The translations under genes and the position numbers were made by a program. The notes under the pieces are model-generated. The model was not told the origin of the DNA. It made no database searches and saw only the letters and a list, made by a program, of their open reading frames with translations. DNA of 64,000 nucleotides from Termitomyces sp. T153 (lineage: Eukaryota; Basidiomycota; Agaricomycetes; Agaricales; Lyophyllaceae), in the NCBI GenBank assembly GCA_018296165.2, contig JACKQL020000005.1:1178001-1242000 (forward strand). The letters are read 5' to 3'. This document shows, one piece after another, positions 601-42,869 of this stretch. How positions within the stretch are numbered: the first letter of the stretch is position 1; every line of letters begins with the position of its first letter.

Positions 601-1549
601 TGATTCTGGAGTAGTTGTCAATGAACTAGTGATAAAAGTTAGCAAACCCCAGAAATGACTGTACCTCCTTGACATTTTGCAGTAGGGGCCAGTTGAGTAT
701 AGCATCGACCTTAGTGGGGTCCATGCACATGCTGTTAGGAGTGATGATGACTCCAAGATATTCAACCTCCATTGTGTGGAAGGAGCATTTTTTGGGTTTG
801 GCATAGAGGTAGTACTCCTGAAGTTGTTCTAGGACATGGTGGACATGCTCTAGATGCTCCTCTGGCAAATTTGAATAGATCAATATGTTGTCCAGGTACA
901 CAATAATGAAAACATTGTTCATGTCATGGAAGATATTGTTCATGAAGTACTGAAAGGTGGCAGGGGAGTTAGTCATTTCAAAGGGCATTACAACGTACTC
1001 AAAGAGGCCATAGTGAGTGCAAAAGGCAGTCTTCCATTCATGTCCTGGAGCAATCTGGACATTGTTGTAGCCAGAATGGAGATCTATCTTTGTGTAGATC
1101 TTAGCACTGTGGAGGCAGTCAATGAGATCCTCAATCAGGAGGAGAGGATACCAGTTCTTTCTAGTGACTTTGTTGAGTCTCTAATAATCTATACAGAGTC
1201 AGAGTGATCTGTCCTTCTTCTTGGCAAACAGGACTGGAGTGCCAGTGGCAGAGATCAATGGGCATATGAAGCCCTTGCCAAGCATGTCATCAAGGTATTT
1301 CTTCAGGGCCTGGAGCTCGATCTTGGACTTGTTGTAGATCTTGCCAAACAGGAGCAAGGCACCTTCTTTGAGGTTGATCTTGTGGTCATAAGAGTGGTGT
1401 GGAGGAAGTTCTTTGGTGCTCCCTTTAGAGAACATGTCAGCAAATTCATGATACTCTGGGGGAACTACTTTGTATAGGATCTGTTCCTCCATTTGGCACT
1501 CTGGCAGGGTAGTTCCTGTGCAGAGGTGTTTCTCTAGTAGGGCTGGCAT
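600..1549 (-). pseudogene. Reverse transcriptase relic of element G pol
   Basis: Two open stretches carry the reverse transcriptase. Bases 1199-1549 contain the entry region (YHEFADMFSKG, LPPHHSYDHKINL, PVLFAKKKDRSL), and 626-988 contain the palm (PFEMTNSPATFQYFMNNIF, the catalytic box and the SFLGFANFYH end). This is the Ty3/gypsy RT that copies element RNA into cDNA. The catalytic YLDD box reads YLDN, with AAC at 887-889; GACGAC to GACAAC is a CpG transition. The frame is broken between the two stretches. The RT type matches the self-priming group of fungal gypsy elements. Confidence 0.88.
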
Positions 1550-2005: not shown

Positions 2006-2963
2006 TGATGAGCCCCAGCTATCACTGAGCACCATGTTTTTGGCATTTTGGACTTAGCGGCAGCTGACTACCTTGAATCTGACACAAGTCACAATACTCA
2101 GCACACGAGACTTAGCCCAAGGATTGGACCGAAGCATGAGACTTTAGCAACTGCGAGACTTATCGATCACAAGAAACATCACGTGGAGTCTGGAACTTGG
2201 GCCTAAATCATCAAGGCCTAGACCCTCCCTAGTAACGATTATTGGTGACCCTAGCAACTCTAGCGACAAAACGGCATTCTCTTATTATATATGGACAAAT
2301 TATCAGATGTGTACCTTTTTACTATCATTTCTTTTGCCAAGCTTACCAACATACTTGAATGGCATCTACGCTTCAGGTATTGACATCGGACTCATTACTT
2401 TTTGGTTTCATTTGCAATTAGGTGCCGCCAAGACTTCACCTATGATTTTTCACTTAGTTACAGACTGACACCTCATATGCTCCCTAAACACAGTGACAGA
2501 TGCCATTGCTAGTGGTGCCTATTTGTTTACTTTCCCATACTATACTTTGAAACATATAAATACTGACTGTACATAGACATAGAAAGAAGAACAATTGGAG
2601 CACTGCTATCTTTGAGCTTACCAGCAAGAGATTTCACTTTGCCTCTTTTGCTCTTTTTATCACCTTCAACCCAGGCTTAGCAATAAGCCTCCTCGACTTC
2701 GACCTTGACTTAGTGTGGTGCCAACTGTGGGTGCCTATTTTAGTTAATCCGATTTAACAATGCTAGCAACTATGGCTAGCGACCCGTTTACTGACTTCTA
2801 TCGACTTCACTCCATGACATAACTTCCGCTCTAGTTCTCTGGGACGGTTACTGACTCGCCCTCAACTATTAACTTCCTACTGCCAGCTACTCTATCTAGT
2901 GACTAGCATTAGGTCCTCTTTTTAGGTTTCCTGCATGGCACCAGGCAGCATAGGAGCACATCA
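2006..2963 (+). repeat. 5' LTR of element N
   Basis: The 958-bp repeat matches 11997-12954 along its whole length. It starts TGATGAGCCCC and ends GCACATCA, giving 5-bp inverted ends. A TATA box (CATATAAATACTG) lies near 2556-2568, so transcription should begin about 30 bases further on. A PBS-like string TGGTGCCAACTGTGGGTGCC lies inside the LTR near 2710 and is also present in the 3' copy, so it cannot be the real internal boundary. Confidence 0.93.
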
Positions 2964-4563
2964 TTTTGGAGCCCACTGCAAGGGAACTTTGAAGTTAACC
3001 ATTCCACCAGAAACCAGAGCTCAAGCAAAACATCGCTTGGAAAACCTTGTTGAATCACCTCCACCTTCATTTTTGACCCCTCAGCACTCTTTGCCAGCAA
3101 CCTGTCTTCAACCTCTTGCCAATGAACTCAAAACCACTAAAAACCTTCATGACATTAGTGAAATCCTTGCCAATTTTCCAGGCACCTTTATCAAAAGTTT
3201 CCTTGACGCACCACTCTCACCTTTGACTTTGACCAACTCTATCTTTTTCCCAGAAGCCCAATCTATCCCTTCATCACCAACTAACCCCCTTCCTTTGCTA
3301 AACCCAACAATCGCTAATATGAACAATGACCCCACTGCTCAGCGTGCTAGAATGCTGCCACACAATGACACAACTGTGCCTAAATGGGATGAGAGTCACC
3401 CTAGGGAACTCCCCCAATACTTCAAGGAACTAGAATACCTCTTTGCTGACTGCAGCATCACTGATGACACCCAGAAGAAGGAATATGCATTGCAATACGT
3501 CTCTTATGACACAGCAGAAACCTGGCTTGGCTTACCTGAATTTGGCGACAATATCAGCAACAACACTCCCTGACCATATACTTATGAGGAATGGAAATTG
3601 GCAGTGCTTAGGTTGTACCCTGGTGCTGATGCTAGCACTCGTTATAACCTCGGCAACTTGGAACGACTGGTCAACCAGACTTTTAACAGTGGCTTAGCGA
3701 CTTTGGGAAGGTTCTCCAATTACTACAGGGATTTCCAACATATCGCCAGATGGTTACTTGCTAATGATAAACTCTATTGAAACGAGGAACGTCACTTGTT
3801 CCAACAAGGTATTCCTACGTCACTATGGTCCAAAATCATTTGTCACCTCGAAATCACTCTTCCCAACCACTATCTGGAGGACCCTTACGATGTTGACCAA
3901 GTTTTCGAGGGTGCCAAATGGGTTTTAAAGGGGATGGACACCTCTACAACTAAGACCAGCAATGGCACCAGTGGTATTCCTTCATCATCACCAATCGCTA
4001 ATGCACCAGCTGCCCCTTCACCTATGCCTAAGCAAGAAACTTTGGAATTAACAACTACCACAGCAATAGTCAGTGCCTTGAAATGTTTGGAAGCTCTTTT
4101 GACCAATGGTAACACCCAACCTTGTCAACAGTTTGCTAATAGCACTTGCCACTTTCGTGGCAAAATTGGTCACACCATGGTCCATGGCATGTGTATGAAA
4201 CTGGAGCAAATGATTCAACAGGGTAAGGTCCGTCAGAATGCTGAGGAAAAGATCATTTTACCATCAGGCACAATGATCCCTAATTATTTCGGCAAGCAAC
4301 TATATATGGAATGCATCGAGGAATGGCATAGGCTTAACCCTGGACAAATTGTTACTGGCAGACTCTCTTCCAACACTAACCCAGATCCCGAGCAAGCAGC
4401 TATGCAGCAGTCACTAATTCACAAAGTAATGCAACAGGACATTGCTATGGGCCAAGCACTAAGCAAGGAAGAATGGATCAAGGCTTTGGAACATGAACTC
4501 TTTGCACTCAGGCAACCTGATGAAAAGTTTGATGGCGTACAAGTCCTCCATGCAGCTTATTGA
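2964..4563 (+). pseudogene. gag-like region of element N
   Basis: One reading frame (frame 1) runs from about 2935 to 4563 and continues into the protease. It is interrupted only by TGA codons at 3571-3573, 3778-3780 and 4561-4563. The central part (EEWKLAVLRLYPG, YYRDFQHIARWL, LFQQGIP) resembles the capsid region of a widespread agaricomycete gypsy family, which forms the virus-like particle. No CCHC zinc knuckle is evident. TGA is the expected outcome of CpG decay at CGA arginine codons, and two stops fall where an arginine would be plausible. Confidence 0.72.
2967..2984 (+). other. Candidate primer-binding site of element N
   Basis: Three bases after the 5' LTR end the sequence reads TGGAGCCCACTGCAAGGG. 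The TGG start suits pairing with the CCA end of a tRNA. I could not match it to a named tRNA. No complement to it is visible near the expected transcript start, so unlike element G this element shows no self-priming match. Confidence 0.45.
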
Positions 4564-5700
4564 CCAGCAAACAATACCCCAAAGGCAACACCCCCGACTA
4601 GCAACACTTCAGCAACTTCATCCTCTTCTGATTCAACTTCAGCTCCTGCCACTAAGCCCGCAGACAAAGGCAAAGCATCTGAACATACTGTCATTAATGA
4701 ACAACTGCCCATTGCTAAGGAACCCATTGCTCAGCCTCCCATTCATCCGTTTTCTGGCATCCCTGGTTGCTATGTACTCCCTGCTAACAGGAATTTCACT
4801 GCTCCCAACTGAACTAACAATGGCACATATCAAACTATGCCACCCATTTATGACATTGAGCAGTCCAAGGCAGTTTTTGAATGGGTTTTAAGCACCAAGG
4901 TTACAGTATTGGTTGGCAAACTTTGCTCAGTATCACAGGACATCCAGAATCAGTTTAGAACAGTGGTTACGCCCAAACAACTAGTAGGCACTAGCGCTAA
5001 TACGGTACAGGATCCAAGCAACATTTTTGAAGATATATTGCTGACTTTTGCTATTGAAGAACCCCAGTTTTCACTAGGATCTAATGTCAATACTGTTAAC
5101 GGACTTACCTTGGATAGGGCACCTTTTGCATCTGTTGACCCCATCAAAGCCTACATCAATTTGCTACCCCATGGAGAAGAGCCCATGGTGCTCACTGTTG
5201 CTAAGGATTCTCAGTCACTGCGTACCATCATAATGCTGATTGACAATAAAGAGGAAGTAGAATGCATTCACGACAGTGGCTCACAGATTATTTTGATGTC
5301 AGTGGAAATTGCCAGTGACCTGGGACTATCCTATGATCCCAACATAGTTTTAAACATGCAGAGCGCTAACAGCACCATGGACCAATTGCTAGGACTTGCT
5401 CAAAACGTACCATGTACTATTGGTGACATTATGGTTTATCTCCAAATCCACATTTTACGGTCTCCTGCCTACAACATTCTACTTGGACACCCCTTTGATG
5501 TATTAACTCAAAGTATGATCAACATGCTTAGCGACGTCAAAACTACTATAACAATTATGGACCCCAATACTGGCCAACGGTGCACTATTCCTACATTTCC
5601 TTGTGGCAAATCCAAAAGGAACCACTGCCAGAATGTTTGCTTCGAAACAGAAGCACCCCGTTGCTTTCATCACCAAAGGCATGGGTGAAGAAGATAGCGA
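4564..5700 (+). pseudogene. Linker and retropepsin-like protease of element N
   Basis: Frame 1 continues from gag with one more TGA at 4810-4812, a Ser/Thr/Pro-rich linker, then an aspartic protease. The active site reads HDSGSQIILMS near 5270-5300, and the family's flap and closing block (PAYNILLGHPFDVL) lies near 5464-5502. The protease would cut the gag-pol polyprotein. The frame ends with TGA at 5686-5688, and the pol frame continues in frame 2 from about 5603, so a frameshift or loss of a base lies in this area. Confidence 0.75.
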
Positions 5701-6930
5701 CATAGCAATTGTTATCAGCTATGACCATTCAACTGGTCTAGCGATTTGTATAGCTTCTTGTGATTTGGCCAACGACATTTTACTTACTAATTCTGACATA
5801 CAGACTAATCCTGTGCTAGCATACCTTTATGCTATGGCTAGCGACATATCTGATTTGTCCCTTCCACCTCATTCTTATCTAGTTTCTGCTGATACATCTA
5901 ATCCCTTGATTCTTGGACAGACTTTACCACTTGATACACACGTTACAGGCACTACCCCCACCTATGTTAACATTCCATTCCCCACTCAATTTGTTGCTAA
6001 CAAACCCCCTAAGCAAAGAGGAGTTCAAGTAAAGAAGAAGTACAAACCTGTTGCCATGAAAACCAAACCAGTTGCCAGCCACGTTAGCGAGGATTTCCAA
6101 ATCAAGCACCAGATTATTGGCAATCTGCTAGCAACAATCCCTCAGCTCAATCCAAATCCCCCACCTTTCATCCCAACAAAGCAATTCACTAGTGAATGAC
6201 AAGCAAAACTTGTTAAGGACCATGACACAGGATTCCTCACTACTGACAAAATCAATGTACTAGTCAACATGGTCACCAAGCAGGAAAAAGCTTTTGCTTG
6301 GGAAGATTCTGAACGAGGAAGTTTGCGCCCCGACTTTTTCCCACCAGTATGCATACCAACAATTCTGCGTGTACTGTGGGTCCAGCATAATTGCCCCATA
6401 CCCCCAGGACTAGAAAAGGAAGTATGCGAGATTATTCATGACAAGATTAGCGTTGGTGTTTATGAACCTTCGAACTTTGCTTACTGCTTGCAATGGTTTT
6501 GTGTTCTCAAGAAGAATGGTAAGCTCAGAATTGTGCAGTCTTGAGCTGCTAAACCATGTCACCATTCACCATTCTGGAGTACCACCCTTTCCAGACCATG
6601 TTGCAGAATCTTTTGCTGGATGCATCTGTAGTGCCACTCTCAACCTCTATGTTGGCTACAACGAGCAACTTATTGACCCTGCTTCATGTGACTTAATGAC
6701 ATTCCAGACTCTGTTTGGCGCTCTTCATTTAGTAACCTTGCCAATGGGATGGACCAACTCTGTGCCTATTTTTCACAATGATATTACTTTCATTTTGCAG
6801 CCAGAGATCTCCCATAACATGCTCAGCTTTATTGACGACATTGGTGTTAAAGGACCCAAGGACTGGAAATTGTTAATGGTAAACCTGCAAAGCATCCTGC
6901 TAATCCAAACATTCACCTAGCACTATGGGA
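5603..6930 (+). pseudogene. Reverse transcriptase of element N (frameshifted)
   Basis: Frame 2 (to 6544, with a TGA at 6197-6199) carries the RT entry region ending FVLKKNGKLRIVQS. Frame 3 (6438-6920) carries the palm: LPMGWTNSVPIFHNDITFIL and then the catalytic FIDD box with two GAC codons at 6834-6839, both intact. The domain copies element RNA into DNA. A frameshift near 6540 separates the two halves. The MGWTNSVPIFH signature is typical of a gypsy group abundant in agaricomycetes. The CpG in GACGAC survives here, unlike in elements G and F. Confidence 0.85.
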
Positions 6931-6964
6931 GTTCTTTCAGCTTCTCAACAGGGTTCTCTAGAGA

Positions 6965-7792
6965 ATGAAATATTGTGGTAGCACTTTTTCTAGTCACAAA
7001 CTGGTTCTTTGTGCCCTGACTTTCAAAATTCTAGGTCATGTTTGCACTCCTAGCAGACAAATCCCTGACAAAAGTCACTTAGCCCTAATTGAGCAGTGGA
7101 GCCATTGCAAGTTGCTATCAAAAGTCCGAGCCTTTTTGGGCACAGTTGGGGTACTTAGGATTTTTGTCAAGAACTTTGCCCATCGAGCCAACAACCTAAC
7201 AAAACTTGCTCACATTGGCGTCCCTTTTGAGTTTGGCCCTGACCAGATAAATGCTCAATGTGACCTCATGAAAGCCTTACAAGACACTAAGCCCCTAGTT
7301 CCTATTGACTATGAGTTGCCTGACCCTGTCATCCTAGCAGTGGACACCTTGTACATAGCGGTTGGATATTACCTTTGCCAGTGCACTAGCAACAATTGCA
7401 AGGAACACCGCTACAACCGCTTTGGATCGATTATGCTAAACAACAGAGAAGCCAGATTCAGTCAGCCCAAGTTGGAACTCTATGGCCTTTATCGAGCACT
7501 ACAAGCTTTACAGATGTACCTCATTGGTGTTAGGAACCTTATCATCAAAGTTGACGCTCGCTACATTAAGGGTATGCTTCAGAACCCTGATATCCAGCCT
7601 TCTGCTAGCATGAACTGCTGGATTATGGCGATTTTGATGTTTCACTTCAAGCTGGTCCACATCAAAGGAACTTTCCATAGCCCCGATGGTCTTTTGCAAT
7701 GCCTGCCACAGCCTGGCAACCCCCCAGCGGATGATAGCAACAGCTCTGTTTATGAGGATTGGATCGATTGCTTACATGGGTTCATTCACTAA
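6965..7792 (+). pseudogene. Connection and RNase H region of element N
   Basis: A 275-codon open stretch holds the RT connection region (RAFLGTVGVLRIFVKNFAHR), an RNase H-like fold (VILAVDTLYIAVGYYLCQ, QPKLELYGLYRAL) and the closing block KVDARYIKGMLQNPDIQP followed by the HIKGTFHSPDGL linker. It removes the RNA strand during cDNA synthesis. Usual VPG and ADGLSR residues in the last block are changed, and the frame is cut off from the RT, so it belongs to a decayed pol. Confidence 0.78.
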
Positions 7793-8169
7793 GTTCAGCT
7801 ACCACTGCCACTACTTTGCCAAGTTTCCACAGCTTCCCATCATCTACCTCCTTTGGCTGAGTATGCTTATTCGCATCCTTTAGCAACTTTTGCCAGTGAT
7901 GCCGGCACTGCCCCCCAGTTAGTGACTAGCAACAATATTCAGCCTCTCTGAGATGATGGCACCACTACATATAGCGATGTACCTTGCAGCGCCAAAGCTA
8001 TTGCCAGCAACGCTTGCATACTTCTAGTTGAAAAATGGCTTCACAATCTCAACAGACCCAAGGGCCTTAGCAACAAAGACTATGCCACTTTTGTTTGCTA
8101 TGCCTCTATGTTCTTTGCTACCAGAGGCAAACTTTGGTGAAGAAGTCAAGATGGCGCTCATAAGCTGTT

Positions 8170-8902
8170 CATGCCTATCACTAGCTGCTTACGGGTCTTG
8201 AAAGCTATGCATGATGACTTGGGTCATAGAGGAATTTTTGCTACTTGCTTAGCCCTTTGAGAACGATTTTGGTAGCTTCAAGTTAGCGCTGATATAGTAT
8301 GGTACCTTCAGACTTGCCACCTCTGCCAAATACACCAGATGACCAAAGTTCTCATCCTGCCAACTGTCACTACACCAGCGCCCTTGTTCAGCAAGATATA
8401 CATGGACACTATGTTCATGCCTCCCTCTAATAAGTTCAAATATATCATTCAAGGACATTGTTTGCTAACTCATTACCCCGAGTCTCACATGCTCGCAAGA
8501 GAGAACACCAAAGCTATCACTAGGTGGCTATACAAGGATGTCATCTGTCATTGGGGAGCACTTAGTAAAATCGTTACTGACAATGGACCTCCCATCCTAA
8601 AGGCAGCTACCTACTTGGCAAAGAAGTATAACTTGCACCACATCCAGATCTCTGGTTACAATAAGCGTGCTAATGGAATAGTAGAGTGGCCCCATTTCGA
8701 TGTTTGCCAAGCCCTCTTCAAAGCAGTTGATGGTGATCAGTCCAGGTGGAGTACTGCTACTTACTCTGTATTTTGGTCAGAACAGGTTACTGTTCACAAG
8801 CAAATGGGTTGCTCCCCTTACTTTGCAACAACCGGTATCCACCCTCTCTTGCCAGCTGACATAGTAGAAGCAGCATATTTGCAACCACTGCCAAACTCGT
8901 AG
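8170..8902 (+). pseudogene. Integrase of element N
   Basis: An HHCC zinc-binding region (HDDLGHRG, then CHLCQ) lies near 8205-8335, with two stops between its halves. The catalytic core is open from 8339 to 8902: first Asp in YMDTMFMPP, second in VTDNGPP, and Glu in ANGIVEW, giving the DDE set needed to join cDNA to the target. The core ends near LPADIVEAAYL, as in the family. The core itself looks intact; the region around it is not. Confidence 0.85.
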
Positions 8903-9384
8903 CCCACCGAGCAATTGATCTTCAATGTCACCAAGAGGATCTCGACTGCCTTCACAGTCACGTTCTTAGTGCTTGTCGCCTAGCAGCCATTTGCTTCAAA
9001 ACAGAACATGCCGCTACAATCTGCAATTACAACTTCAAAGCAGGCAACCTTGTACTGATGAGGAATACTAGAATTGAGGTAACACATAACAAGAAGATGA
9101 AGCCTCGTTATCTAGGCCCCTTAGTGGTAATCTCTCACAACCATGGAGGCGCTTACATTATTTGTGAACTAGATGGCACCATACTGCATTGTCCCATTGC
9201 TGCCTTTCGTTTAGTTCCCTATTTCACTAGAGAACACATAACAGTACCTAGCAATGCTTTTGACATTGACACCTCTCGACTCAGAGAACTGGAGCAAACT
9301 GAACTTGTCGATGACAACAATACTGGCGACGTCACCAGTGAAGAAGAAAACTACCTTTCACTAAGCCTTAGTGACTTATCTTGA
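8903..9384 (+). pseudogene. C-terminal integrase tail of element N
   Basis: Past a TAG (8900-8902) the tail resumes in frame 1 at 9058-9384 with RNTRIEVTHNKKMKPRYLGP, GGAYIICELDGTI and AAFRLVPYF. This is the small SH3-like beta domain found after the integrase core in this group, not a chromodomain. An acidic Ser-rich end follows. Bases 8903-9057 keep matching text only in broken frames. Confidence 0.7.
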
Positions 9385-9791
9385 CTCTGCTTCATTGCTT
9401 ATTGTGCCAACCCCTATTATCCATTAAATCCTTTTGTTTTTGCTACTCTTTCACTGTTGTTACTTCGGTTAAGAAGCCTTTCACAGACACATTATTTTAC
9501 ATTCTTTTCTTGCTTTGATGCTGTGCTTGGCCCTGCTGTTGCCAGCGCTCAGCACGCCTCTAGAGGTATTTTGCCATGATGATCTACTGAGCGTTTGCCT
9601 TCATGCATCACTAGCGTTAGGTGACAGTCGCCAGTGTGTAATACCCCATTGATCTTGTTTTTGTTTTGTTTGGTTTCTCTCAGACTCTGAATCGTCGCCA
9701 AGTATTAAACATTTTGGGGCCTCTTAAGGGGGCTAGTCTGTGTCCGTACCATGAAAACTAAAAGAAAATCATATACAGGAGGCGACTGGTG
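9385..9791. other. Non-coding spacer of element N
   Basis: About 400 bases between the end of pol and the end of the antisense gene. It is T-rich near 9420-9500 and contains no open frame of note. It probably holds the convergent 3' ends of pol and of the antisense gene. Confidence 0.45.
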
Positions 9792-11825
9792 CTAAGAGTT
9801 GAGGTCAGCGTCATCGTCAGGCACCTCCATGGAATCCTCCGCCTCCTCCCAGTCTCCTTCCCCAATGTTGTTCTCCTCCTGCCAGGCCAGGAAGGCCTGA
9901 CAGTCTTGCCAATATCCCACCAGAGTTGCCAACATTCGCTTGGTGACAGCATAATGGGCCTGCACTGCTAACAACTCCTCCCTGGCAGCCTCCAGCTTCC
10001 TCTGGAACCACCATTCCACTTCAGCTACCCTCTTATCAAAATCCGCTAGCGACACTGCTGACATTAGCAGTGTTGGCCAACCCAGATCCTTGCCCAACCA
10101 CTCCAGCTTGTCGTCGCCAACCTGGTGCAATGGAGTGTCACTCCAGGTCCCCTAGCAAAGCAGTTAGTGATCAAGAAGATAGCAAAAGGAAAGAACTTAC
10201 CCATTGTCAGACTTCAACCTCCTTGGCCCTTTCCTCCTCCTTGTCCTCCTTGATGGTGGCGGGGGCAGCCTCAAACTCTTCCTTGCCCTTGACCTCCATG
10301 TTGCTTGCCTCCTGCTCCATCTCAGCAGCCGTTGCTAAGGGAGTCATCTCCCTCATCTCCACGTCCCCCTCTCCCTCCTCGCTAGCAACCGGTCGAGGTT
10401 GCTTAGCACTAGCGACTGACACAGGACTTGCTGCTTGTTTTCGTGCCAGAGGCACTTCGTTGTTGTTGTCATTGTCGCCACTGTCATTGCCACTGTCCTC
10501 ATTGCTCTTCACCCACTCCTTACTCTTTGCCTTAGCACCCCCACTACTCCCACTCGTCACCTCCTCCTGCAATGTTGGCAAGCTCAAGCTAGAAGGCTTG
10601 AGCTTGATGGACTCCCCTCTTCTTGCTAACTCCCGCTGTTGCTCTATGAAAGCCCTTGCGTTCCTTACCGATGCCACCTTCATTGCTATCTTCTTAGCAA
10701 ACTTGCCACCAGTACTCCTTGACGACCATCTGCTGTGCAAGCAGCTTTTCCTTGTGCTGTTGCAACAATAACAGGGCTGGACCCCCATGGGGTACCAGCA
10801 GCCCTCTGGGTCATTATCGGCCTAGCAGTTGTCACACTAGAGGAAGTTGTTAGTGACAAAGAAAGAAACAATTGCTAAGTGCTTACTGCTCCTTGCGTGC
10901 GCTTAGACTCTTGATGCTTCTCTAGCAACACCATTACCTTTCCTTTTGCCTTCTCCAACTTCACCCCAGCTCCCAGGCCAGTGTCCACCACTGTCAAGGG
11001 TTTTTGCCAATGCAGAAGGGTTGCCAAGCACTTATCAGTAAATGTTTCTTCAATTTGTTCCTGCAAAAACAGTTAGCGACCATTGCCAAGAGTTAGCAAA
11101 AAAAAAAAGAAGAAGACTCACCTCAATATCCTCGTCATCCTTGTCTTGTGCCTTTGCTTTCCCCTTCCCTTTGCTCCTCAGAGTTGTTGCCAATCATGGC
11201 AACATCGCCAACCCCCTAGCGACACCGCCAGCTGCTGCCTTGGGAGTTGAGGGGCCTGCCTCTTGAATGTCCCCATGATTTGCCACCTCCTTGCCCCCGC
11301 AACCCTCACTCCATCCCTCCCCCCTCGCCACCGCTAATGCACCTACCGGGTGCTGGAAGAAGAACTGGTCATTTGGTGACAAGTCTTCAAAAAGCTGACA
11401 TACTTTAGTGGTGTTGCTAGTGCTAGTGACTGCCAGGGCACTTACCATCATTCCTGCTGTAAGGTTGTTCATTAGGAACTCCAAAGAGCGATTGACTGGC
11501 ACCTAGCAATCATGTTAGAAATGTCACTAAGAGAAGAAAAGAAGAGACTTATGAAGTGGATATCAAATGGGTGAACCCATTCCTCCCCCTTGTACTGCTT
11601 GTATAGTTGGCAACACTCCCTCTTGACAGTTGCCAACTCTGGCCACTCAATCCCACTCCCCGCAGTCTTGAACCACTGCAGCCACATCTGAAAGATAGTG
11701 GTAACCACCAAGCAAGGATCCTTCGCCAAGGAAGCATGAGCCACAGTGAGCAATCAGTCAACACATTCCAGGAAGGCACAGGCCATCATAGTCTTTTCGA
11801 ACTGAGAGGCAAGATTGGACATAGC
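9792..11825 (-). pseudogene. Spliced antisense gene (aORF) inside element N
   Basis: The minus strand carries a gene-like reading interrupted by canonical introns: 11061-11121 (GTGAGT..TTTGCAG), 10152-10200 (GTAAGT..TGCTAG) and one starting at 10886 (GTAAGC). The N-terminal part is globular (FQMWLQWFKTAGSGIEWPEL, then HPFDIHFISLFFSSLSD). The middle holds a Cys motif PCYCCNSTRKSC (CX2CX6C, like half of a Zn2Cys6 site). Next come a charged acidic region and a coiled coil near QRKLEAAREELLAVQAHY. A TGA after AFLECVD near 11754 breaks it. Similar antisense proteins are, from memory, common in agaricomycete genomes. Its function is unknown; a DNA-binding or regulatory role is only a guess. Confidence 0.6.
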
Positions 11826-11987
11826 AATAAGATTGAAATTGTAGTGGAGAGTAAATGAGAAGAAAGTGGGGATGATGAAGTTTAAGCAATACTGCCAGCC
11901 ATTTTTATTTGAATCCCTCTGGCACACAGACCAAGTGATCAAGCATGTGATTTTGGGGTTGACTGAGGACAGTCAATATTTCAGTAT

Positions 11988-11996
11988 GGGGGAGGA
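11988..11996 (+). other. Polypurine tract of element N
   Basis: GGGGGAGGA lies directly before the TGATG start of the 3' LTR. This is the usual place and composition for the primer of plus-strand cDNA synthesis. Confidence 0.8.
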
Positions 11997-12954
11997 TGAT
12001 GAGCCCCATTTATTGCTGAGCACCATGTTTTTGGCATTTTGGACTTAGCGGCAGCTGACTACCTTGAATCTGACACAAGTCACAACACTCAGCACACAAG
12101 ACTTAGCCTGAGGATTGGACTGAAGCACAAGACTTTAGTGACTGCGAGACTTATCGATCATGAGAAACATCACATGGAGTCTAGAACTTGGGCCTAAATC
12201 ATCAAGGCCTAGACCCTCTCTAGTGACGATTATTGGTGACCCTAGCAACTCTAGCAACGAAACGGCATTCTCTTACTATATATGGACAAATTATCAGATG
12301 CATACCTTTTTACTATCATTTCTTTTGCTGAGCTTACCAACATACTTAAATGGCATCTACGCTTCAGGTATTGACATCGGACTCATTACTTTTTGGTTTC
12401 ATTTGCAATTAGGTGCCGCCAAGACTTCACCTATGATTTTTCACTTAGTTACAGACTGACACCTCATATGCTCCCTAAACACAGTGACAGACGCCATTGC
12501 TAGTGGTGCCTATTTGTTTACTTTCCCATACTATACTTTGAAACATATAAATACTGACTGTACATAGACATAGAAAGAAGAACAATTGAAGCACTGCTAT
12601 CTTTGAGCTTACCAGCAAGAGATTTCACTTTGCCTCTTTTGCTCTTTTTATCACCTTCAACCCAGGCTTAGCAATAAGCCTCCTCGACTTTGACCTTGAC
12701 TTAGTGTGGTGCCAACTGCAGGTGCCTATTTTAGTTAATCCAATTTAATGATGCTAGCAACTATGGCTAGCGACCCATTTACTGACTTCTATTGACTTCA
12801 CTCCATGATGTAACTTCCACTCTAGTTCTCTGGGATGGTTACTGACTCGCCCTCAACTATTAACTTCCTACTGCCAGCTACCCTATCTAGTGACTAGCAT
12901 TAGGTCCTCTTTTTAGGTTTCCTGCATGGCACTAGGCGGCATAGGAGCACATCA
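11997..12954 (+). repeat. 3' LTR of element N
   Basis: This 958-bp copy matches 2006-2963. By eye about 33 positions differ, one of them a transversion, and most are pairs of CG, TG and CA at the same place. TAGCAAC in one copy facing TAGTGAC in the other, both explained by an ancestral TAGCGAC, is a clear example. Confidence 0.93.
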
Positions 12955-13200
12955 ATGGTATTGAGTGATTCCTATTGTAGCAGGGCTTCCATCAAAGAGT
13001 TGGAGCTTGAGAGGTTTGTTAAGGCTGTTGTGTCAGAGATCAAGTTGACTGCTGATGAAGGTGCCAGAGGCACCACTGTCAACAAGGGTGGGGAGGACCT
13101 TGGGCAAGCTGTTGAGTTGGACATTGATGATGAACAACTGCACGGACCTTGAGTGGAGCTGTGAGGGAGTCTCAGGTCAGTCAATCATGGTCTTGGGGTT
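12955..13200 (-). pseudogene. N-terminal protease part of element G, right of the insertion
   Basis: The minus strand reads LPTLVDSGASGTFISS with the retropepsin DSG triad at about 13069-13086, then a stop, then LFDGSPATIGITQYHDN up to the insertion point. This reading joins that at 2005 in frame. The protease would release mature gag and pol products. The stop after the active site shows decay. The first four bases (12955-12958, ATGG) are the right copy of the target duplication. Confidence 0.78.
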
Positions 13201-16160
13201 TTCAGAGGGGGGTGAGACATCAAAGAGCACTAGTCCAGACAGTTGGATTGTCCTGGTCAAGGTGGAGGGTGAGGCTGGGCCAGTCAATGTGGGGATTGGT
13301 GGAGTGGAGCCATGAGAAGCCTAAGATGATGGAGATAGAGGAGTGTAGTTTTGTGATGAGTAGTTGGAGTTCTTGCTGTTATTCATTGGCGAATGTCATG
13401 GTCATCTCCAGGTGGTGTGTGATATCTCCAGCAGGGGTGGAGTTGCTATCAAAGAGCTTGAGGATGATCAGAGTGGGGAGGCAGAGGTGTTGGGAAGTGA
13501 GCACCACCAGGAATTTGTCAATGAAGTTACTGTAGTGCCACTGTTGACTAGTGTGGGGACAGAGTTGTCAGAGAAGGAGAGGGTGGTGCAAAGGAGGAGA
13601 GTGGTGGAGGAGTGGGAGGGGAGGTATGCTGGGAGGTTGTCTGGGGCAAGTACCATTGCATGGAGAAGTGTGGCTGGGGTGGAGAAGACTTGGAGTCTGG
13701 TCTGCAGTCTAATGCATCTTCAAGACCTAAACTGCTGACTCATTTTCTATAAACTGGTAATTGCAGTCTTCTCCATTAATTGTCCACATGGTGTATCCCA
13801 TCACCTGTCATTTAGGACAACTGCAGATAATGTGTCCCTGCTCACCACATAGGATGCATGTGCCATCCTTCTGTCATATCTCCTGAGCCTCTTCTGGTAT
13901 GTTAATCCACAGCCTATCCCAGATCTTATTTGTGCATAGGGCTTCTTAGTTGTCAGCAGAGTCTGGAACATTGTTGAGGTTGTTGGAGTTGGTGTCCAGG
14001 GGTTCTGGAGCCTCATGGAGGTTGGCGGCATTGAGTTGGGCAGGTGGGCATTGTCTCAGGGGTTGAATGGTGCTGGAAGGTCCTTGGCCTGGAGAGAAAC
14101 GGGGTGCAGGGTTGGCAGGGTTGATAGGGATTGATGGTCAATTGCTGTTGGTTGTCCCAACCTGCCAGTTGGTGTTGCTGGAGGTGTTCCACAAGGTCTA
14201 GGGTGCCATGTTCTTGCTCTGGTCTTCCTAATAATGTTGGTTGACCTGGGTAACAAGTGCTTTGTACCCATTGTAGGTGGTTTGCTTGGGTGCAAGATGG
14301 AGGATGTCCTTGATCTGTTGAGGCAGGGCACAATGGAGAGCAAAGTGGAGGGCATTATAATTCCACCCAGTTTTGTAGGCTTTCTATTCAAATTGTACAA
14401 TGAAGGTTGTGAAACATTTGTTGTTGCACATTTAGAGGTTGAAGAGGTTCTCCTCCACCTCCACTACAGTATCAAAGACACCAAACTTACTAGAGAATAT
14501 CTGGGTGAAAGCAAGCCAGTTGGAGAGTACAGAGTTGTTCAGATCAAATCAGAGTAGCACTGTATAATGGTTGAAGGTGATACCCTGCAAATATGATGTA
14601 GCAAAGGCTACTTATGAGCTCTCAAGCTGGAAAGTGATGGGCTTAGCTTGGAACATAGTTAGATACTGGGTCAGGAAGATGCACCACCTCTGGGGGTTGT
14701 GGCTAATGAAAGGTTTGGGCTTTTGAATGTTGAGTTTCCCTTCTTGAGCCAGTGCATTGCAAGTGTTGTCCTGAGTGTTTTGAGTTTGGGGTGGGGGTCC
14801 AATGTTGTAGTAGTAATGATAATTATTTCTGTTTCTGTGCTGGGGGGGAAGTTATCTATGGCTAAGCCTCATCCCCCAGATGGTCCACTGTTGGGAGGTC
14901 TGCCACTGGCAGGCTGGCCCATGTTGCCCAGGGGAGCTCCTGGGGCCCATTGAGGGGGAGGGGATCTTCTGGGAGTGGGGGGTCCAAAGTAATTAGTGTC
15001 AGCAGGGAAATTGGGCATTGGAGCAGGTGGGGGATGAGGGGGGTTAGTGGGAAAAGGGGGTCAGGGTGCCCTGAGGCCTGTGGGCTGTCTTGGAGGGGCT
15101 GGGATGTTCTAGTAGGGTGGAGAAATGTTGGTATGGGAGGTGCAGAGATCAAAGTGGGGAGGTCTGTCTTGTGGAGGGCCATTGCACAGAGTGGGCTCAT
15201 CAGGGGGGTTACTAGGCTCATCAATATAGGAAAGAGTCTGGTTGTTGTTGACAATGTGCAGGGGCAGCTGTTGTGAGCAGGGTTTGGAGATGGCAGGCTG
15301 ATCCCATGTATGGAAGGCACTGGGGACAAAATTGGCCTGGAGATGAGTTCTTCCTACTGGTGGGCAATGAGAGGAGGGGCTTTGCTTTGCATCCCAACAG
15401 GTTCCTTGCATTGTACATGGAAGGAGCAGGAGGGGTCCAGAGGATCTTTAAATGGGCAGGGGTTTGGACTAGTATGGATTTCTTTGATCAGTGTGTGGAG
15501 CTCATTCCATAAATTAACATTGATTCCCAGAGTGCCTTGCATAGTTTTAGGGAGATTCTCTTGCAGGTAGTGTTTGTGAAAATCAAGGAGCTGATCCACC
15601 CAAACTTCTGGCATTGTGGGGGTGTTGGATAGCCTAAGTTGACAAGGAGAGTGTGAGCATGCCTTGCAAACTCCATGGGGGAGAGGCAGAGGAAGCAGAG
15701 AACTTTGTCATGCTGTTGGACATAGGCTTTGACCCTTGCTGTCTGGAGGAAGGGGAAACTTGAGCAGGAAATGGCAGACAAGGAGGAGAATAATTATCTG
15801 GGTGCCCTGGAGGGGCTGGAGCTGCAGTGGGGGTTGGGTACACATAGTAGTAGGCAGGGGGGAGGTAGGCAGGGTTGGGGGGTGCTGCAGAGTATCTTTC
15901 AGAGTACATGTGGGGGTTGTTGTCATTGATGGGGAATGCTGGAGGGCAGTGCCAGCCTGGAGGTATCCCCTGGCTAATAGAGGGGGTGTAGAATGCCTGG
16001 TTGGGGTCAGGGATCCAATGACAGGGAACATACTGATTCACAGGGGGGCCTGGGTAGAATGGGGCATATGGGTTTTCAGGGACTAGCCAACTGTAAACAT
16101 CAGTTAGGTAGTCAGCAGAGTTGTACATGGGGTTATATGCAAACATCAAGAACAGGGTAA
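13201..16160 (-). pseudogene. gag of element G
   Basis: The minus strand from about 16160 encodes a Pro/Tyr-rich N-terminal region (AYNPMYNSADYLTDVYSW, repeated PP and YP pairs). A helical part follows (WVDQLLDFHKHYLQENL), then further frames broken by stops, and a CCHC zinc knuckle CILCGEQGHIICSC at 13817-13858 (CX2CX4HX4C). Gag packages the element RNA; the knuckle binds it. Several plus-strand open frames here are shadows of the same repetitive, stop-poor composition. Bases 13201-13800 hold the gag to protease linker and read only in fragments. Confidence 0.72.
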
Positions 16161-16165
16161 GGGGG

Positions 16166-16178
16166 AGTCTTGATATTA
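16166..16178 (-). other. Self-priming type primer-binding site of element G
   Basis: The 13 bases touching the inner end of the LTR read AGTCTTGATATTA on the plus strand (TAATATCAAGACT in the RNA). They are the exact reverse complement of the predicted transcript start at 16728-16740. In Tf1-type elements the 5' end of the mRNA folds back on the PBS and primes reverse transcription; position and length fit that model. Confidence 0.75.
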
Positions 16179-17226
16179 TGTCAGGTTCCACTGACTATGA
16201 GGGCTCAGCTATACTGGGCAAGTCCTTATTAGGTGGATGCAATGTCCTGCACTTATAACCTAGCACTCTAGGGTTTGCATGGAGGGTAGGGACTTGCAAG
16301 GGGAAGCTAAGGGGAGTGATCTGAGCAAGTCCAGAGTGGTCTGGGGAAGTCTAAGACCAAGTATATTAGACTTTGGCTTGGGCAGGCATCAGGTACAAGT
16401 TTGTAGGTGCACAAATAGATTGTGGGGTACATGGAGGCTTTGCAAGTGATGGGGGGTGGAGCTGGATTTGGACAGGGAGTTGATCAAGACTTGATGGGTT
16501 GTGGAGTTGAGCATGGAGCAAGGTCCAAAGTTGTTGTAAGAATGTTTGGGGGTCATAGCATGGGTGCAGAGTTCATACTGATGTCAGAAGTTGAAGGAAC
16601 TTAGAGAAACAAAGGAAATAGAGACAATTGAGATGAGAAGAGATGAGACTGAGAAAAGAGATAGATTTGAGGCTAGAAATAGAGACAGAAATGGAAAGAA
16701 ACACAAGACACAAGTAACCAGTTAATGTAATATCAAGACTGGAGTATGAGGTGTTACTTTACAGATTATATACTGACTATGGGAGAGCTCCAGAGGCAGT
16801 GGGTGTGGTGGCAGGGCTCAATGGAGCTGTGCAGAGTTGACAGGTGTTGGTTGTGATTGAGGGGCAGGCTGCAGCAACATTCTGATGGGGTCAGTTGGGG
16901 ATGTGGGTTGCTCTGGTGTTGTCATGATGCTCTGGAGGGAGTTGGGTGAGTCAGAGTGGTGAGCCAGAGATGCATGATGGGGTTAGGAATGGTGGGGGAG
17001 GGTTCCAGGGGCTCAGGGAGTCAAGGGAAGCATCAACAGCTGTGGAGAAGGTCATCAGAGTTAGCCAGAGGGCCATCAGGGTTTGCCAGAGAAGCACTGG
17101 AGTTGCCCAGGGTAGCTGCAGAGGGTGTTTGACAGTTGGGGGTTTTGACAAGGCATTGGGGGAGGGACTCTGGGGAAGTGAGTGGGCTGGAAACAATGTT
17201 GAAGGTTTAGGGAGTGAGTCATGACA
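16179..17226 (-). repeat. 5' LTR of element G (LTR A)
   Basis: The 1048-bp repeat has TGTCA..TGACA ends. In the sense (minus) direction a TATA box (TATATAA, 16766-16772) is followed 32 bases later by AGTCTTGATATTAC (16740-16727), the probable transcript start. Other copies of the family lie at 18245-19297, 23947-25044 and 41741-42869. The outer flank GTGAC (17227-17231) should recur at the left end of the element, outside this window. Confidence 0.85.
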
Positions 17227-18046
17227 GTGACAACATGGCCTCCTCTCTAAAAAGGGATATATTGAAAGCCATGTGATTTCTTACTTATCATTTTTCTTCT
17301 TGGGCTCACAAACATACTTGAACAGTGTCTACACTTCAGGTTTTGATGTTGGAAATGCTCTTTTCTTGTGATTGACAATTTTTACACATTATATTGGCAT
17401 TGCATATGTATACTTGGTTACCAGACTGACATCCAGTATATAACACTTTAGTAGACACCACTACTGGTGGCAACTAATATTGCCTTTCTTATACTATACC
17501 TATGAACAGTATAAATACTGCCTGTACAAAGAGACCAAAGAACAGAGACCAGCATACCATTCCCCCTTCATTAGCTCTAAGCTTACTAGCTTCAGATCTC
17601 TTTTTACCTAGTCTCATCTTTGTCAATGGCTTAGCAATAAGCCTTAGTGACTTTGTTCTCAACTTAGTGAAGGTACCAAGTGTGGGTACTCTATAGTGAC
17701 TTTCTGTTTAGCAGCATTAGTGATTATAGCTAGCAACTAGTTTTTGTTTGTCCCCCTCAGTCTTCATTATCATCCCTTACCCCTTCCCCCTTATCCTTAC
17801 CACTTTGCCATTAATCCCTTTATCATACTTAGCAACTTTCACCACCTTCATAGTGACTTTTCTGTTATAATTAGCAATCTCAACCTAGCAATCCTTCATC
17901 ACTTGCATTTCTTCTAGCTCTTGCTTTCTGGAACAGTTACTGACTTGCCCCACCATTTCTTATTGCCAGCTACCCTATCTTGTTGCCAGTGTTTAGGTGT
18001 TCTTTTGTTTCCCTGCATGGCAACTAGGCAGCATAGAAGCACATCA
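17227..18046 (+). repeat. Truncated older LTR related to element N (LTR E)
   Basis: The stretch shares ordered blocks with the element N LTR: CATACTTGAA..TCTAC.CTTCAGG, TATAAATACTG.CTGTACA, TTAGCAATAAGCCT, GCTAGCAACTA, GTTACTGACT and the end GCATAGAAGCACATCA. It is more diverged than the N LTR pair. Its left part is missing where element G begins, so element G probably inserted into it. No gene is present. Confidence 0.68.
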
Positions 18047-18244
18047 TAGGGTGTACCTCAAATGTGCAGTATTGGGATTGTATTCTTACTTGCACCTCTT
18101 TTCTATTTCCTTATATGTCTTACAATGATTAATATTTACAAATTTTCTTCCCTATTTTGTATTGCCACACCTCAGTGGCTACTATTCTGTGGTTGCTCTG
18201 AGGTGTGTATAGTCTATTATTTCAATCCCTACTTACATGCTAGT
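18047..18244. other. Short spacer with a 10-bp inverted repeat
   Basis: No gene. CACACCTCAG (18166-18175) and CTGAGGTGTG (18198-18207) are perfect inverted repeats with a 22-base loop. The last five bases (CTAGT, 18240-18244) are the left target duplication of the solo LTR that follows. Confidence 0.5.
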
Positions 18245-19297
18245 TGTCAGGTTCTGCTGATGATGGGGGCTCAGCTACACTAGCAAATCCTTACTAGGCA
18301 GACACAATGTCCTGCGCTTATAACCTAGCATCCTGGGGGTGGCGCAGAGTGGAGGGACTTGTGAGGGGAAGCTAAGGGAAGTGGTCCAAGTAAGTCCAAA
18401 GTGGTCTGGGGAAGTCTAAGACCAAATATATTGACATTGGGCTTGAGCAATTGCCAGGAACAAGTTTGTAAGCACATAAATGGATTGCGGGGTGGACAGA
18501 GGCTTTACTAGGGTCAGGGGTGGAGCTAGAGTTTGATGGGGGGTCAAGTAAGACTTGATGGACTCGGGGCTGAGCAAGGAGCAAGGTCCAGAGTTGTTGT
18601 AAGAATGTTTGGGGTTTGTAGTGCATGCATGGAGTTTGTAATGATGTTGGAGATGGAAGGAACTTAGAGAAACAAAGGAAATATATACAGTCGAGATGAG
18701 ATGGAGACAAGGCAAGACAAGACAGAGAAAAGAGATAGATTTGAGACTAAAAATAGAAACCAAGACAGAATGGAACATAAGACATAGGAAACCAGTAAAT
18801 GAAATATCAAGACTAAATTTCTAGGAGTTACTCTACAACTTATATACTGACTACTGGGTACCTCTGGAGGGCAGTGGATATGGTGGCAGGAGTCAATAGA
18901 GTTGTGCAGAGTCAATGGGTGTTGGGTACAATCCAGGGTAGGCCACAGCAATATTCTGATGGGATCAGCTGGGGGCGCGGGCCACTCTGGAGTTGTTGTG
19001 ATGTTCCAGAGCAGGTCAGGTGAACTAGAGTAGGGGGTTGGAGGTGTATGACATGGTCAGAAATGGTGGGAGAAGTCTCAGGAGTTCAGGGGGGTCAAGG
19101 GGAAGCATCAATGGCTGCGGAGGAGGCGTCAGAGTTGAACAGGGCCATCAGAGTTGAACAGGGCCATTGGGGTTTGCCAGGGAAGCATAGGAGTTACTTG
19201 GAGTGGGCGCAGAGGGTGGGCAAGGATTGGGGGATTTTAGCAGGGCATTGGGAAGGACTGGGAATGATGTCGGGGTTCTAGGGAGTGGGTTGTGACA
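18245..19297 (-). repeat. Solo LTR of the element G family (LTR B)
   Basis: A 1053-bp LTR with TGTCA..TGACA ends and a perfect 5-bp target duplication CTAGT at 18240-18244 and 19298-19302. The sense strand is minus: a TATATAA box is followed by AGTCTTGATATTTC (18814-18801). There is no element body on either side, so recombination between two LTRs removed it. Confidence 0.87.
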
Positions 19298-23946: not shown

Positions 23947-25044
23947 TGTTATGATCTACTCCCAGACCTCTGGACCTCTTCCCAAGCCACCCTGCTACTC
24001 CAGACTCCCCACCAACACCCTCTTGACTCACCCTGACCTTTGTTCACCCATGATGCCTGCCCCAGCTAACTCTGACACTTCCTCAGTAAACTCTGATGGC
24101 CCCCTGGCAAACACTGACATGTTCCCTGCAGGCCCTGTCACTTCCCTTTCTCTTCCAAGCCCCTAGGCCCCTCCAACACTGTTTCTGATCCTGGTGTATG
24201 TTACTGACTTGTTACCACAACTTGTCTGACCAGTCCAGAACATCCTAAAAACTCTGGGGCAGTCCACATTCCCATCAGTTCCCATCAGAATATTGCTGCA
24301 GCCTGCCATCTGATCAGAACTGACACCTGTTGACCCTGCACAGCTCTAACAAGCCCCACCATCAGACCTGCAGTCCCTGGAGGAGTTCTTGTAGTTAGTA
24401 TATATAAATTGTAGAATAATATCTGCTATGGCAGTCTTAATATTACCTGTGGTTACTTGTTTCTCATTACATTCTGTATTTGTTATGTTTTCCAGTCTTT
24501 TCTACTTCTATCTCTCAACTTGTACTTCTCTCAATCTATTTCATTCTTGTCTTTGTCTTCTCTTGACTCTATCTCACCTTGTCTGCATCTATTTCCTTTC
24601 ACATGTGCCTAAGTTCCTTTCAACTTTAACTCCATTCCAAATCTCTGTTCATATCTTTATTCATGCCTTTACAACTCTAAAACATTTCCTATCTAACTCT
24701 GGACCTGCTCTGCAATCAACCCTGGAACACATCAACATTATTGATTTCCCATCAACCCCCTGGTCCCACTTTGTTGTTTGCATGGCCTCCACTTGCCCCA
24801 CATATTCAATACTTGCCTCCAGACTTGTGCATGATGCAACCCCAAGCCCAACCCTTGTTGTACCTAGTCTTGGACTTCCCCAGACCACCCCAGACTTGTT
24901 TGGACCACTCCCCCTAGCTTATCCTCACAAGTATCCAATGTCTGGACCTCCCAGGAATGCCAGGTTCTAAGTGCAGGACATCACATCTGCCTAGTAAGGA
25001 CTTGCCCAGTTAAGCTGAGCCTCTGTGGTCAGTGGAACCTGACA
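23947..25044 (+). repeat. Solo LTR of the element G family (LTR C)
   Basis: A 1098-bp LTR starting TGTTATGATC and ending CCTGACA, with a perfect 5-bp target duplication GCCAT at 23942-23946 and 25045-25049. The sense strand is plus: TATATATAAA near 24398 is followed by AGTCTTAATATTAC at 24433-24446. No element body is attached. A 180-codon open frame across it (24428-24970) is a by-product of stop-poor LTR sequence. Confidence 0.87.
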
Positions 25045-35000: not shown

Positions 35001-35233
35001 GTCAACTGTTCGAAGAAATTGACCACATCATCTTGAGGCCTTCCTAGGTGCTGAGAGTCCGCAACCTGGATGGAGAGTGTGCGGAAACCAATTGGAAGAG
35101 AAAGGTTTGGGTTGGCAGGAGAGGACGAATCATGGAATGCGAGTCCTGGAGCTCCAGATATGGGACGAAGCTCTTCACGGATGTCTCCCTTTGTATGAAC
35201 TTTTTCATCCCCAGACTCGATGTCAACACTCAT
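32018..35233 (-). CDS. Na+/K+-ATPase-like P-type cation ATPase, copy 1
   Basis: An intact 1071-codon frame without introns, starting at an ATG. It encodes a P-type ATPase that moves cations across a membrane by an Asp-phosphate intermediate. Visible parts: an N-terminal cation-ATPase segment, M1/M2 near residues 125-180, the actuator loop LTGES (251-255), M4 with FIPEGMPVAVTLTL (about 371-384), the phosphorylation site CSDKTGTLT with Asp416, KGAPD (551-555), VTGD (661-664), TGDGVNDAPA (768-777) and six C-terminal membrane segments. M4 and the nucleotide domain resemble animal Na,K-ATPase alpha (type IIC) more than fungal ENA sodium pumps. A relation to the fungal ACU alkali-cation uptake ATPases is possible. 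Its sister copy is at 46344-49568, transcribed the opposite way. Confidence 0.93.
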   Translation of the reverse strand: MSVDIESGDEKVHTKGDIREELRPISGAPGLAFHDSSSPANPNLSLPIGFRTLSIQVADSQHLGRPQDDVVNFFEQLTYHNVSVEKLCAMFGTTADRGIENIVAARNIQRDGKNTIAKAKPKYIWKLITYLFGGFCSILWVAVIVFFICWQPLSNPPSPTNLALAIVIIGVILSQASFSAFQDWSTGRIMNSILDLIPSECVAIREGKTSRIPAADLAVGDVVILSVGNKVPADIRLIETSDDLRFDRAVLTGESEEVGGHVDSLGETFLEAPNIALMGTHVTNGHAKGVVVLTGGRTVMGRISRLTNKTKVKPTLIQQEIWRFVRIIILLTILLGLSIVIIWLAWLHRDHKPFLTVVAMLNDVMGCIVAFIPEGMPVAVTLTLSLIARRMKEISVLPKSLSTVETLGCVTVICSDKTGTLTQNKMSVMSVGFVDETYTAQGFRESLTGVSARARAAFQQFHKAAVLCNGATFDSATVDLPLESREINGDATDGAILRFVESFGDASAIRASESEIYRVPFNSRNKWMLTMYDSLSVQDAEKKSASLIFVKGAPDVLIPNCTSYLSALTNDIQPFDSAARARLLATQEEWARGGQRVIILCMREYIPYHSVGTNDFGIEVTKNGLEELTIVGILGLMDPPRLESAVAVKDCRRAGVRFFMVTGDFGLTAAAIGRQIGIITTHAEPDSFADVVKQMNEMPNGPLPSCRDPANRIQKSLVLEGKDLVLLQENHWDVVTRYEEIVFARTTPEQKLSIVNSFQKRDNVVAVTGDGVNDAPALKAADVGVAVVTGSDVAMEAADLVLMGNFDSIVGGIRLGRLVFQNLQKVIAYLLPAGSWSEAWPVVINAYLGVPLPLSSFLMIIICCFTDLSPCLSLIMEKEEFDLLTLPPRNHRKDHLINFKIYTQAYFFIGMIETVIAHVMFFFYMWRAARIPPGDLFLAFEKYSEGFHGYTQDELNHFNFVGQSVYFVTVVILQWGNLLSVRNKRLSILQADPIRKERRNPWIFVGVIVAFLIAIFVTEVHGIQNLFLTASVPVEFWLIPLPLALGILFLDEIRKLLVRVYPRGLLARIAW

Positions 35234-41740: not shown

Positions 41741-42869
41741 TGTCATGACCCACTCCCAGAACCCTAGACCTCATTCCCAGCCACCTCACTTCCCCAGAGT
41801 TCCCCCTCAAATCCCCCTTCAACTCCTCCAACCTTTGTTCACCCATGGCACTCACTCTGGGTAACTCCAACACTTCTCCAGCAAACCCTGACAGCCCCCT
41901 GGCAAACTCTGATGCCTTCCCCACAGCCTTTGACACTTCCCCTGCCTCTCCTGACTGTTCCTAGCACTGGCATACATCACCAGTTTGTCATCCTGACTTA
42001 CCCAACCAGCTCTGGAGCATCACAACAACTCCAGGACAGCCCACATCTCCAACAGATCCCATCATGATCCCATCAGTATATCACCGCAGCCTGCCCCTTG
42101 ATCACAACCAACACCCATCTGCTGTGCATGACTCCGATGAGCCCCACCACTAGACCCACTATCCCTGGAGCTGTCCCAGTAGTCAGTATATAAGTCATAG
42201 AGTAGCATCCTGAACTCTAGTCTTGATATTGCTTAACATTACCTATGTTCTGATTGTCTGTCTCTTGTGTTTTGTGTTTCTTGTTATGTTTTCCATTATC
42301 TCAGTCTCCTGGTCTTGTTTTGTCTCTATCTCCATTATTGTCCTGTTATAATTTCATATCTCTGCTTGAATCTATTTTTGTTCTCATCTCAATCTTGCCT
42401 CAACTCCATCTCATCTTGTTTGACTCTGTTCCCTTTATTGTGTTCAAGCCCTTTAAACCTTAACACTATTACAAACTCTGCACTTACAATCACAAACCCC
42501 AAATATTCATAAACCAACTTTGGACCTCACTATTTGCTCAGCCCTGAAACCCATCAACATCAATTGATCTCCCATCAAACTCCAGCCCCACTTCCATCAC
42601 TTGCATAGCCTCCATTTGCCTCATATCACCAATACTTGCTCCAGACGTGTACCTGGAACTTCCCCCAGCCCAACCCTTCCTCATATCTTGTCTTAAAACC
42701 TCCCCAGACCACTTTGGACTTGCTCAGACCACTCCCCCTTGACTTACCCTCACAAGTATCTGAAGTCCAGACCTCTCCAAAGTGCTAGGTTATCAGTGCA
42801 GGACATTGTGTCTGCCTAGTAAGGATTTGCCCAGTGTAGCTGAGCCCCTGTGGTCAGTGGAACCTGACA
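41741..42869 (+). repeat. Solo LTR of the element G family (LTR D, 1129 bp)
   Basis: Starts TGTCATGACCCACTCCC, ends GGAACCTGACA, with a perfect 5-bp target duplication CAAAC (41736-41740 and 42870-42874). The sense strand is plus: TATATAAG near 42187 is followed by AGTCTTGATATTGC at 42219-42232. No body is attached. Confidence 0.87.

Follow-up and report, generated by a model that had tools for sequence, protein, structure and literature searches.

Priming of reverse transcription by the RNA of the element itself (self-priming) was first demonstrated for the retrotransposon Tf1 and was later implicated in other hosts (PMC4600332). In Tf1, 11 nt are paired and the RNA is cut between nucleotides 11 and 12 (PMC7175516), self-priming is said to be common among the Tf1/sushi chromoviruses (PMC10085805), and most plant elements of the Tcn1 clade, a clade with representatives in Cryptococcus, mosses, and club-mosses, are predicted to be self-priming (PMC6317226). 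A literature search, with most subscription journals outside its scope, returned no paper on self-priming in Termitomyces.

In this study, we analyzed a stretch of 64,000 nt from Termitomyces sp. T153 (the window; G000:C5:1178001-1242000) and searched the whole 72.4-Mb assembly of 307 contigs. Judging from its sequence, one retrotransposon of this window, element G, is very probably a member of a large Ty3/gypsy chromovirus family in which the RNA of the element itself serves as the primer for reverse transcription. This Ty3/gypsy element lies on the minus strand and carries GTCAC on both outer flanks, representing a 5-bp target duplication. Since a nested element splits it, its frames for reverse transcriptase (RT) and integrase are found beyond the latter. 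The features of element G and its relatives in the window are as follows.

16179..17226, minus strand: 5' LTR of element G, 1,048 bp, ends TGTCA...TGACA
G000:C5:1172248-1173291, left of the window: 3' LTR of element G, 97.5% identity to the 5' LTR
17227-17231: target duplication GTCAC of element G, reading GTGAC on the plus strand
16766..16772, minus strand: TATATAA box of element G, first base 32 bases upstream of the predicted +1
16729..16740, minus strand: predicted self-primer AGTCTTGATATT, initial 12 nt of the transcript, predicted +1 at 16740
16728, minus strand: transcript nucleotide 13 of element G, variable in the family, mostly A or G
16166..16178, minus strand: primer-binding site (PBS) TAATATCAAGACT of element G, of which 16166-16177 pair with the 12-nt primer
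626..1180, minus strand: RT fragment of element G (Pfam RVT_1), beyond the nested element
2006..12954, plus strand: nested LTR element inside element G, LTRs at 2006-2963 and 11997-12954
18245..19297, minus strand: solo LTR of the element G family, target duplication ACTAG (LTR sense), start motif at 18803-18814
23947..25044, plus strand: solo LTR of the element G family, target duplication GCCAT, start motif at 24433-24444 with one change
41741..42869, plus strand: solo LTR of the element G family, target duplication CAAAC, start motif at 42219-42230

The target duplications of all three solo LTRs comprise five bases and are perfect. In element G, the T at 16178 separates the LTR from the paired part of the PBS. 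Since neither of its LTRs contains a single CpG, this copy has to be regarded as decayed. The LTRs of the nested element have diverged further (95.4% identity, 44 differences) than those of its host element G (97.5%, 22 differences, all of them transitions), an order opposite to that of nesting, which unequal CpG loss may explain. The older sequence at 17227-18244, which adjoins element G and surrounds it, harbors three pieces resembling the LTR of the nested element (66-76% identity, best E value 3e-21); together with the nesting, this older match leads to the conclusion that both families invaded each other, in both orders. Elsewhere, the window revealed two genes for P-type cation ATPases, each a single open frame, at 32018-35266 (minus strand) and 46344-49568 (plus strand). 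Counted between stops, they comprise 1,082 and 1,074 aa, respectively; they lie in inverted orientation 11 kb apart and are mutually 85% identical over 3.2 kb, and one of them showed 91% identity to a P-type ATPase of Termitomyces sp. Mi166.

With respect to coding capacity, RT and integrase were detected in element G itself, the best matches of its RT fragment among solved structures being Ty3 chains. A family copy on contig C2 revealed RVT_1, RNase H, and integrase domains in that order, and family copies additionally carried an SH3 domain like that of Tf2-1 and, at the C-terminus of the integrase, a chromodomain (PF00385, E values of 1.8e-18 and 9.4e-18 in the copies on C2 and C26, respectively), which in the C2 copy follows a stop and is read in a frame of its own. 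In one young copy of the family, the stretch spanning RT and integrase showed 89% identity to a Termitomyces sp. T112 protein, with 86% of its length aligned. The C2 copy also contains an antisense open frame of 421 aa, stop to stop (L101:2877-4142), situated between chromodomain and 3' LTR; its cysteine-rich start bears a weak resemblance to a fungal Zn(2)-Cys(6) cluster (E value 0.02, below the curated cut-off).

The initial annotation had described the bases adjoining the LTR as a 13-base inverted copy of the presumed transcript start. This pair proved to be real, as AGTCTTGATATTA at 16166-16178 on the plus strand is the exact inverse of 16728-16740, and the claimed spacing also holds, with the TATATAA box at 16766-16772 beginning 32 bases before the predicted first transcript base. 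While all 13 bases match exactly in element G, the part kept throughout the family comprises 12 bases, not 13. Searching the window for AGTCTTRATATTA with up to one mismatch resulted in five occurrences compared to 0.26 expected and a maximum of two in 100 shuffles. From 12297-16178, a region whose 12-mer set takes in part of the LTR of the nested element, two of 3,870 12-mers were perfectly complementary to a site in the 5' LTR, and the 13-base match alone accounts for both; the 12-mer was absent from all of 20,000 LTRs resampled with a Markov model. A TATA-filtered scan of the window for other elements of the self-primed type revealed two further pairs (37593/38797 and 36719/35161). The start motif is also present in the other three LTRs, as had been reported, namely as AGTCTTGATATT at 18803-18814 (minus strand) and 42219-42230 and as AGTCTTAATATT at 24433-24444. 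Its survival despite CpG decay had been put forward as well; the motif is indeed kept, but the argument is a weak one, since the motif does not contain any CpG.

According to the self-priming reading, transcription would begin at 16740, and the first 12 nt of the transcript would fold back over about 560 nt to pair with the PBS, which directly follows the 5' LTR. On the model of Tf1, we infer that the RNase H of the element would then cut after about nucleotide 12 and that RT would extend the freed RNA across U5.

Searching the assembly for TATATAA-N23-27-AGTCTTGATATT resulted in 2,713 hits and none for the reversed control pattern, and the LTR/PBS junction GACATAATATCAAGACTC was found 1,111 times with up to two mismatches, compared to seven times for its control. 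On contig C1, at least 28 of 33 exact junctions had a listed TATA box with the 12-mer no more than 1.6 kb upstream, and the spacing from start to PBS ranged from 559 to 739 nt in 25 of these 28 pairs and from 415 to 902 nt in 27 of them. Reading the remaining five junctions directly revealed the exact 12-mer in four, 564-664 nt upstream. Altogether, the start complements the PBS well beyond element G, as the initial annotation had asked of other family members, in 32/33 exact junctions of this contig, the exception being L114, which had no 12-mer in the stretch fetched. The invariant PBS of these copies, including its initial T, proves nothing, since they were chosen for an exact PBS.

Two further samples were drawn on other grounds. 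Among LTRs found by similarity (33 of 40 matches read), the 12-mer was exact in 26 and mutated in seven; it was exact in all 12 LTRs with an adjacent PBS versus 14 of the 21 without one (p 0.027), a difference for which age may account. The PBS of these 12 copies was exact in 11 and carried one change in L007. Six stretches were picked by RT alone from 150 RT matches listed, and four of them possessed a family 5' LTR, each with the 13-base pair; since three of them share 98-99% identity, two subfamilies are represented, and three of the four have normal CpG content. The other two, L067 and L070, showed no DNA match to the element G family and no TATA-linked pair in the flank read. A search of viral contigs for the exact PBS junction found none. 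At least 22 start-to-PBS copies of a young subfamily (e.g., C2:370739-371399) were at least 98% identical among the 40 candidates scored, and the observed/expected ratio of CpG was 0.95-1.04 in three close young copies versus 0.04 in element G. Young copies beside CpG-depleted relatives are the result of recent transposition next to CpG decay. To our knowledge, earlier cases of self-priming rest mostly on few copies each. With its roughly one thousand PBS junctions and its LTRs in the thousands, both old and young, the single genome analyzed here represents a natural mutagenesis of the leader.

These numbers also bear on the length of the putative primer. Nucleotide 13 of the transcript is G in 1,681 of the 2,713 LTRs. 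If this base belonged to a primer that is copied into the PBS, a PBS starting with C would be expected to occur often. An exact junction with this matching C occurred once, compared to at least 100 with T among the junctions listed; in the 12 copies found by similarity, nucleotide 13 was G in seven and A in five, and the PBS began with T in all 12. Since G is frequent at nucleotide 13 and the matching C was met once, the counts suggest a primer of at most, and most simply of exactly, 12 nt, which is a checkable prediction.

The uncoupling of base 13 also speaks to a first alternative, according to which the pairing, be it in cis or between two RNAs, is real but regulates another process (dimerisation of the RNA, its packaging, or its translation), with some other primer in use. 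Sequence cannot separate priming from other purposes of pairing, and the fold described below is predicted pairing only. Nevertheless, we consider this alternative unlikely, as the paired region directly adjoins the end of the LTR, the place required of a primer, the first base of the duplex is the predicted +1, and base 13 shows no coupling to the PBS, as expected for a cut primer. Folding of R-U5-PBS paired the start with the PBS at a probability of at least 0.96 at positions 2-10 in eight of nine copies, an outcome largely guaranteed by the 12 complementary bases; the ninth copy (L103) formed the same helix displaced by 2, its flank being 2 nt shorter. A candidate second duplex was identified beside this helix, its arms in element G being as follows.

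16157..16162, minus strand: CCTTAC, directly 3' of the PBS, one arm of the candidate second duplex
16224..16229, minus strand: ATAAGG in U5, the other arm, GTAAGG in most of 31 copies

Counting G-U as a pair, the arms CCTTAC and GTAAGG, the latter some 50 nt upstream of the LTR end, can form six pairs in 29/31 copies, compared to at most 6/31 in the other non-overlapping 7-base windows from -400 to -9. Element G and L023 reach five pairs. No covariation between the two arms was seen in these 31 copies, and a third leader duplex had no consistent position among the copies compared.

A second alternative holds that a tRNA, or a half-cut tRNA as in some copia elements, serves the PBS and that the match to the LTR is secondary. 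This was addressed with 63 tRNAs predicted by ARAGORN in 60 fetched stretches, a partial set of 28 anticodon kinds including one odd one, and the incompleteness of this set of candidates leaves the alternative some room. In this tRNA check, which the initial annotation had proposed, the best match to the complement of the element G PBS was 9/13 among these 63, and no internal tRNA stretch in the same partial set was complementary to the PBS as half-tRNA priming would have it. In contrast, the PBS of the nested element (TGGAGCCCACTGCA, 3 nt past its LTR) matched the 3' end of tRNA-Lys(ttt) at 12/14, so the method is able to detect a genuine PBS of the tRNA type, and a single window holds elements of the tRNA type and the self type side by side. 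The element G PBS furthermore lacks the initial TGG that complements a CCA end. The sole closer match, a 12/13 copy of the PBS at L072:1-15 (G000:C5:1517858-1517872), lies outside the tRNA, in the region flanking the 3' end of a tRNA gene with an intron, and in the wrong orientation; no LTR similarity was found around it in comparison with the window and seven loci, and the match is probably due to chance. As tRNA priming would also leave unexplained why the complement of the PBS is the predicted transcript start in 32/33 copies, we regard it as very improbable.

The self-priming reading was further examined across diverged copies. Of 20 leaders fetched, 19 were compared, L114 being dropped because its stretch had no 12-mer; 15 of the 20 had been picked with the 12-mer already listed and five without, a bias that the count of 32/33 avoids. 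Identity of R-U5 among the compared copies went down to 54% (6 x 8 comparisons). Out of 8,996 distinct 12-mers, 11 were common to all 19 copies; ten of these overlap the LTR end and PBS, which served as the selection criterion, and the eleventh is AGTCTTGATATT, a result whose weight is limited by the common ancestry of all copies. The 12-mers shifted from it by one base reached 0.89 and 0.79, and the best one elsewhere in R-U5 reached 0.68. Among 38 closely related LTRs, the start motif revealed a mean conservation of 0.978 and ranked 5th of 680 windows, 2nd of 113 among windows without CpG columns, and 17th of 554 with CpG columns masked; compared to this close set, the comparison across distant subfamilies is the stronger evidence. 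Concerning compensating changes between start and PBS, which the initial annotation had suggested as a check, the one position examined (G7A/C7T) showed nothing beyond chance: G7A was present in the start of 96 LTRs and C7T in the PBS of 19 junctions, with one linked pair, 1,060 bp apart, and about 0.7 expected. In the compared copies, the leader drifts while the 12 bases and their complement stay. Chance, or a functionless inherited inverted repeat, is hardly credible even if all copies are related and a frozen accident could be inherited, given that a single 12-mer besides the LTR end and PBS is present in 19/19 copies with R-U5 at about 55% elsewhere and that it is kept in CpG-rich and decayed copies alike. 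The proposed reading of Tf1-like self-priming gains support here, the sole 12-mer kept across subfamilies being the predicted start and exactly complementing the bases after the LTR.

Since precedents for self-priming exist in Tf1/sushi elements and Tcn1, element G is counted as a known type. By its features and domains, it is placed as a probable addition to the known self-primers of the Tf1/sushi type, and its family is probably a clear and abundant new example of such priming. We also lean slightly towards a fuller picture of this self-primed lineage, in which a 12-nt primer is cut one base later than in Tf1, some 2,700 LTRs have been left behind in one fungal genome, the leader is about 55% identical around a fixed primer/PBS pair, and one base independent of the primer lies between LTR and paired PBS.

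Among the known systems, Tf1 and Tf2 of Schizosaccharomyces pombe resemble the family described here in being chromodomain Ty3/gypsy elements whose first mRNA bases complement the PBS beside the 5' LTR (PMC7175516, PMC10085805), and the Tf2-1-like SH3 domain is a further trait shared with them. The candidate second duplex is similar to the duplexes beside the PBS in the Tf1 'pretzel' (PMC10085805). For Tj1 of S. japonicus and for Tosmo/Tcry, a PBS complementing the 5' mRNA end was inferred from sequence and a 'pretzel' leader is possible (PMC4600332, PMC10085805); these elements reside in ascomycetes, unlike element G, for which the second duplex is a candidate only. Among basidiomycetes, a self-primer has been proposed for Tcn1 of Cryptococcus, as here (PMC7175516), and the MarY1 and Laccy clades also consist of basidiomycete chromoviruses (PMC2864245). 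In contrast to the family described here, neither tRNA priming nor self-priming was found for SM-Tcn1 of a club-moss (PMC2864245). Differences from Tf1 and Tf2 include the spacing from start to PBS, which amounts to 415-902 nt in 27/28 pairs in the element G family. Finally, while 11 nt are paired in Tf1 (PMC7175516), 12 nt are kept in the element G family and nucleotide 13 is uncoupled from the PBS.
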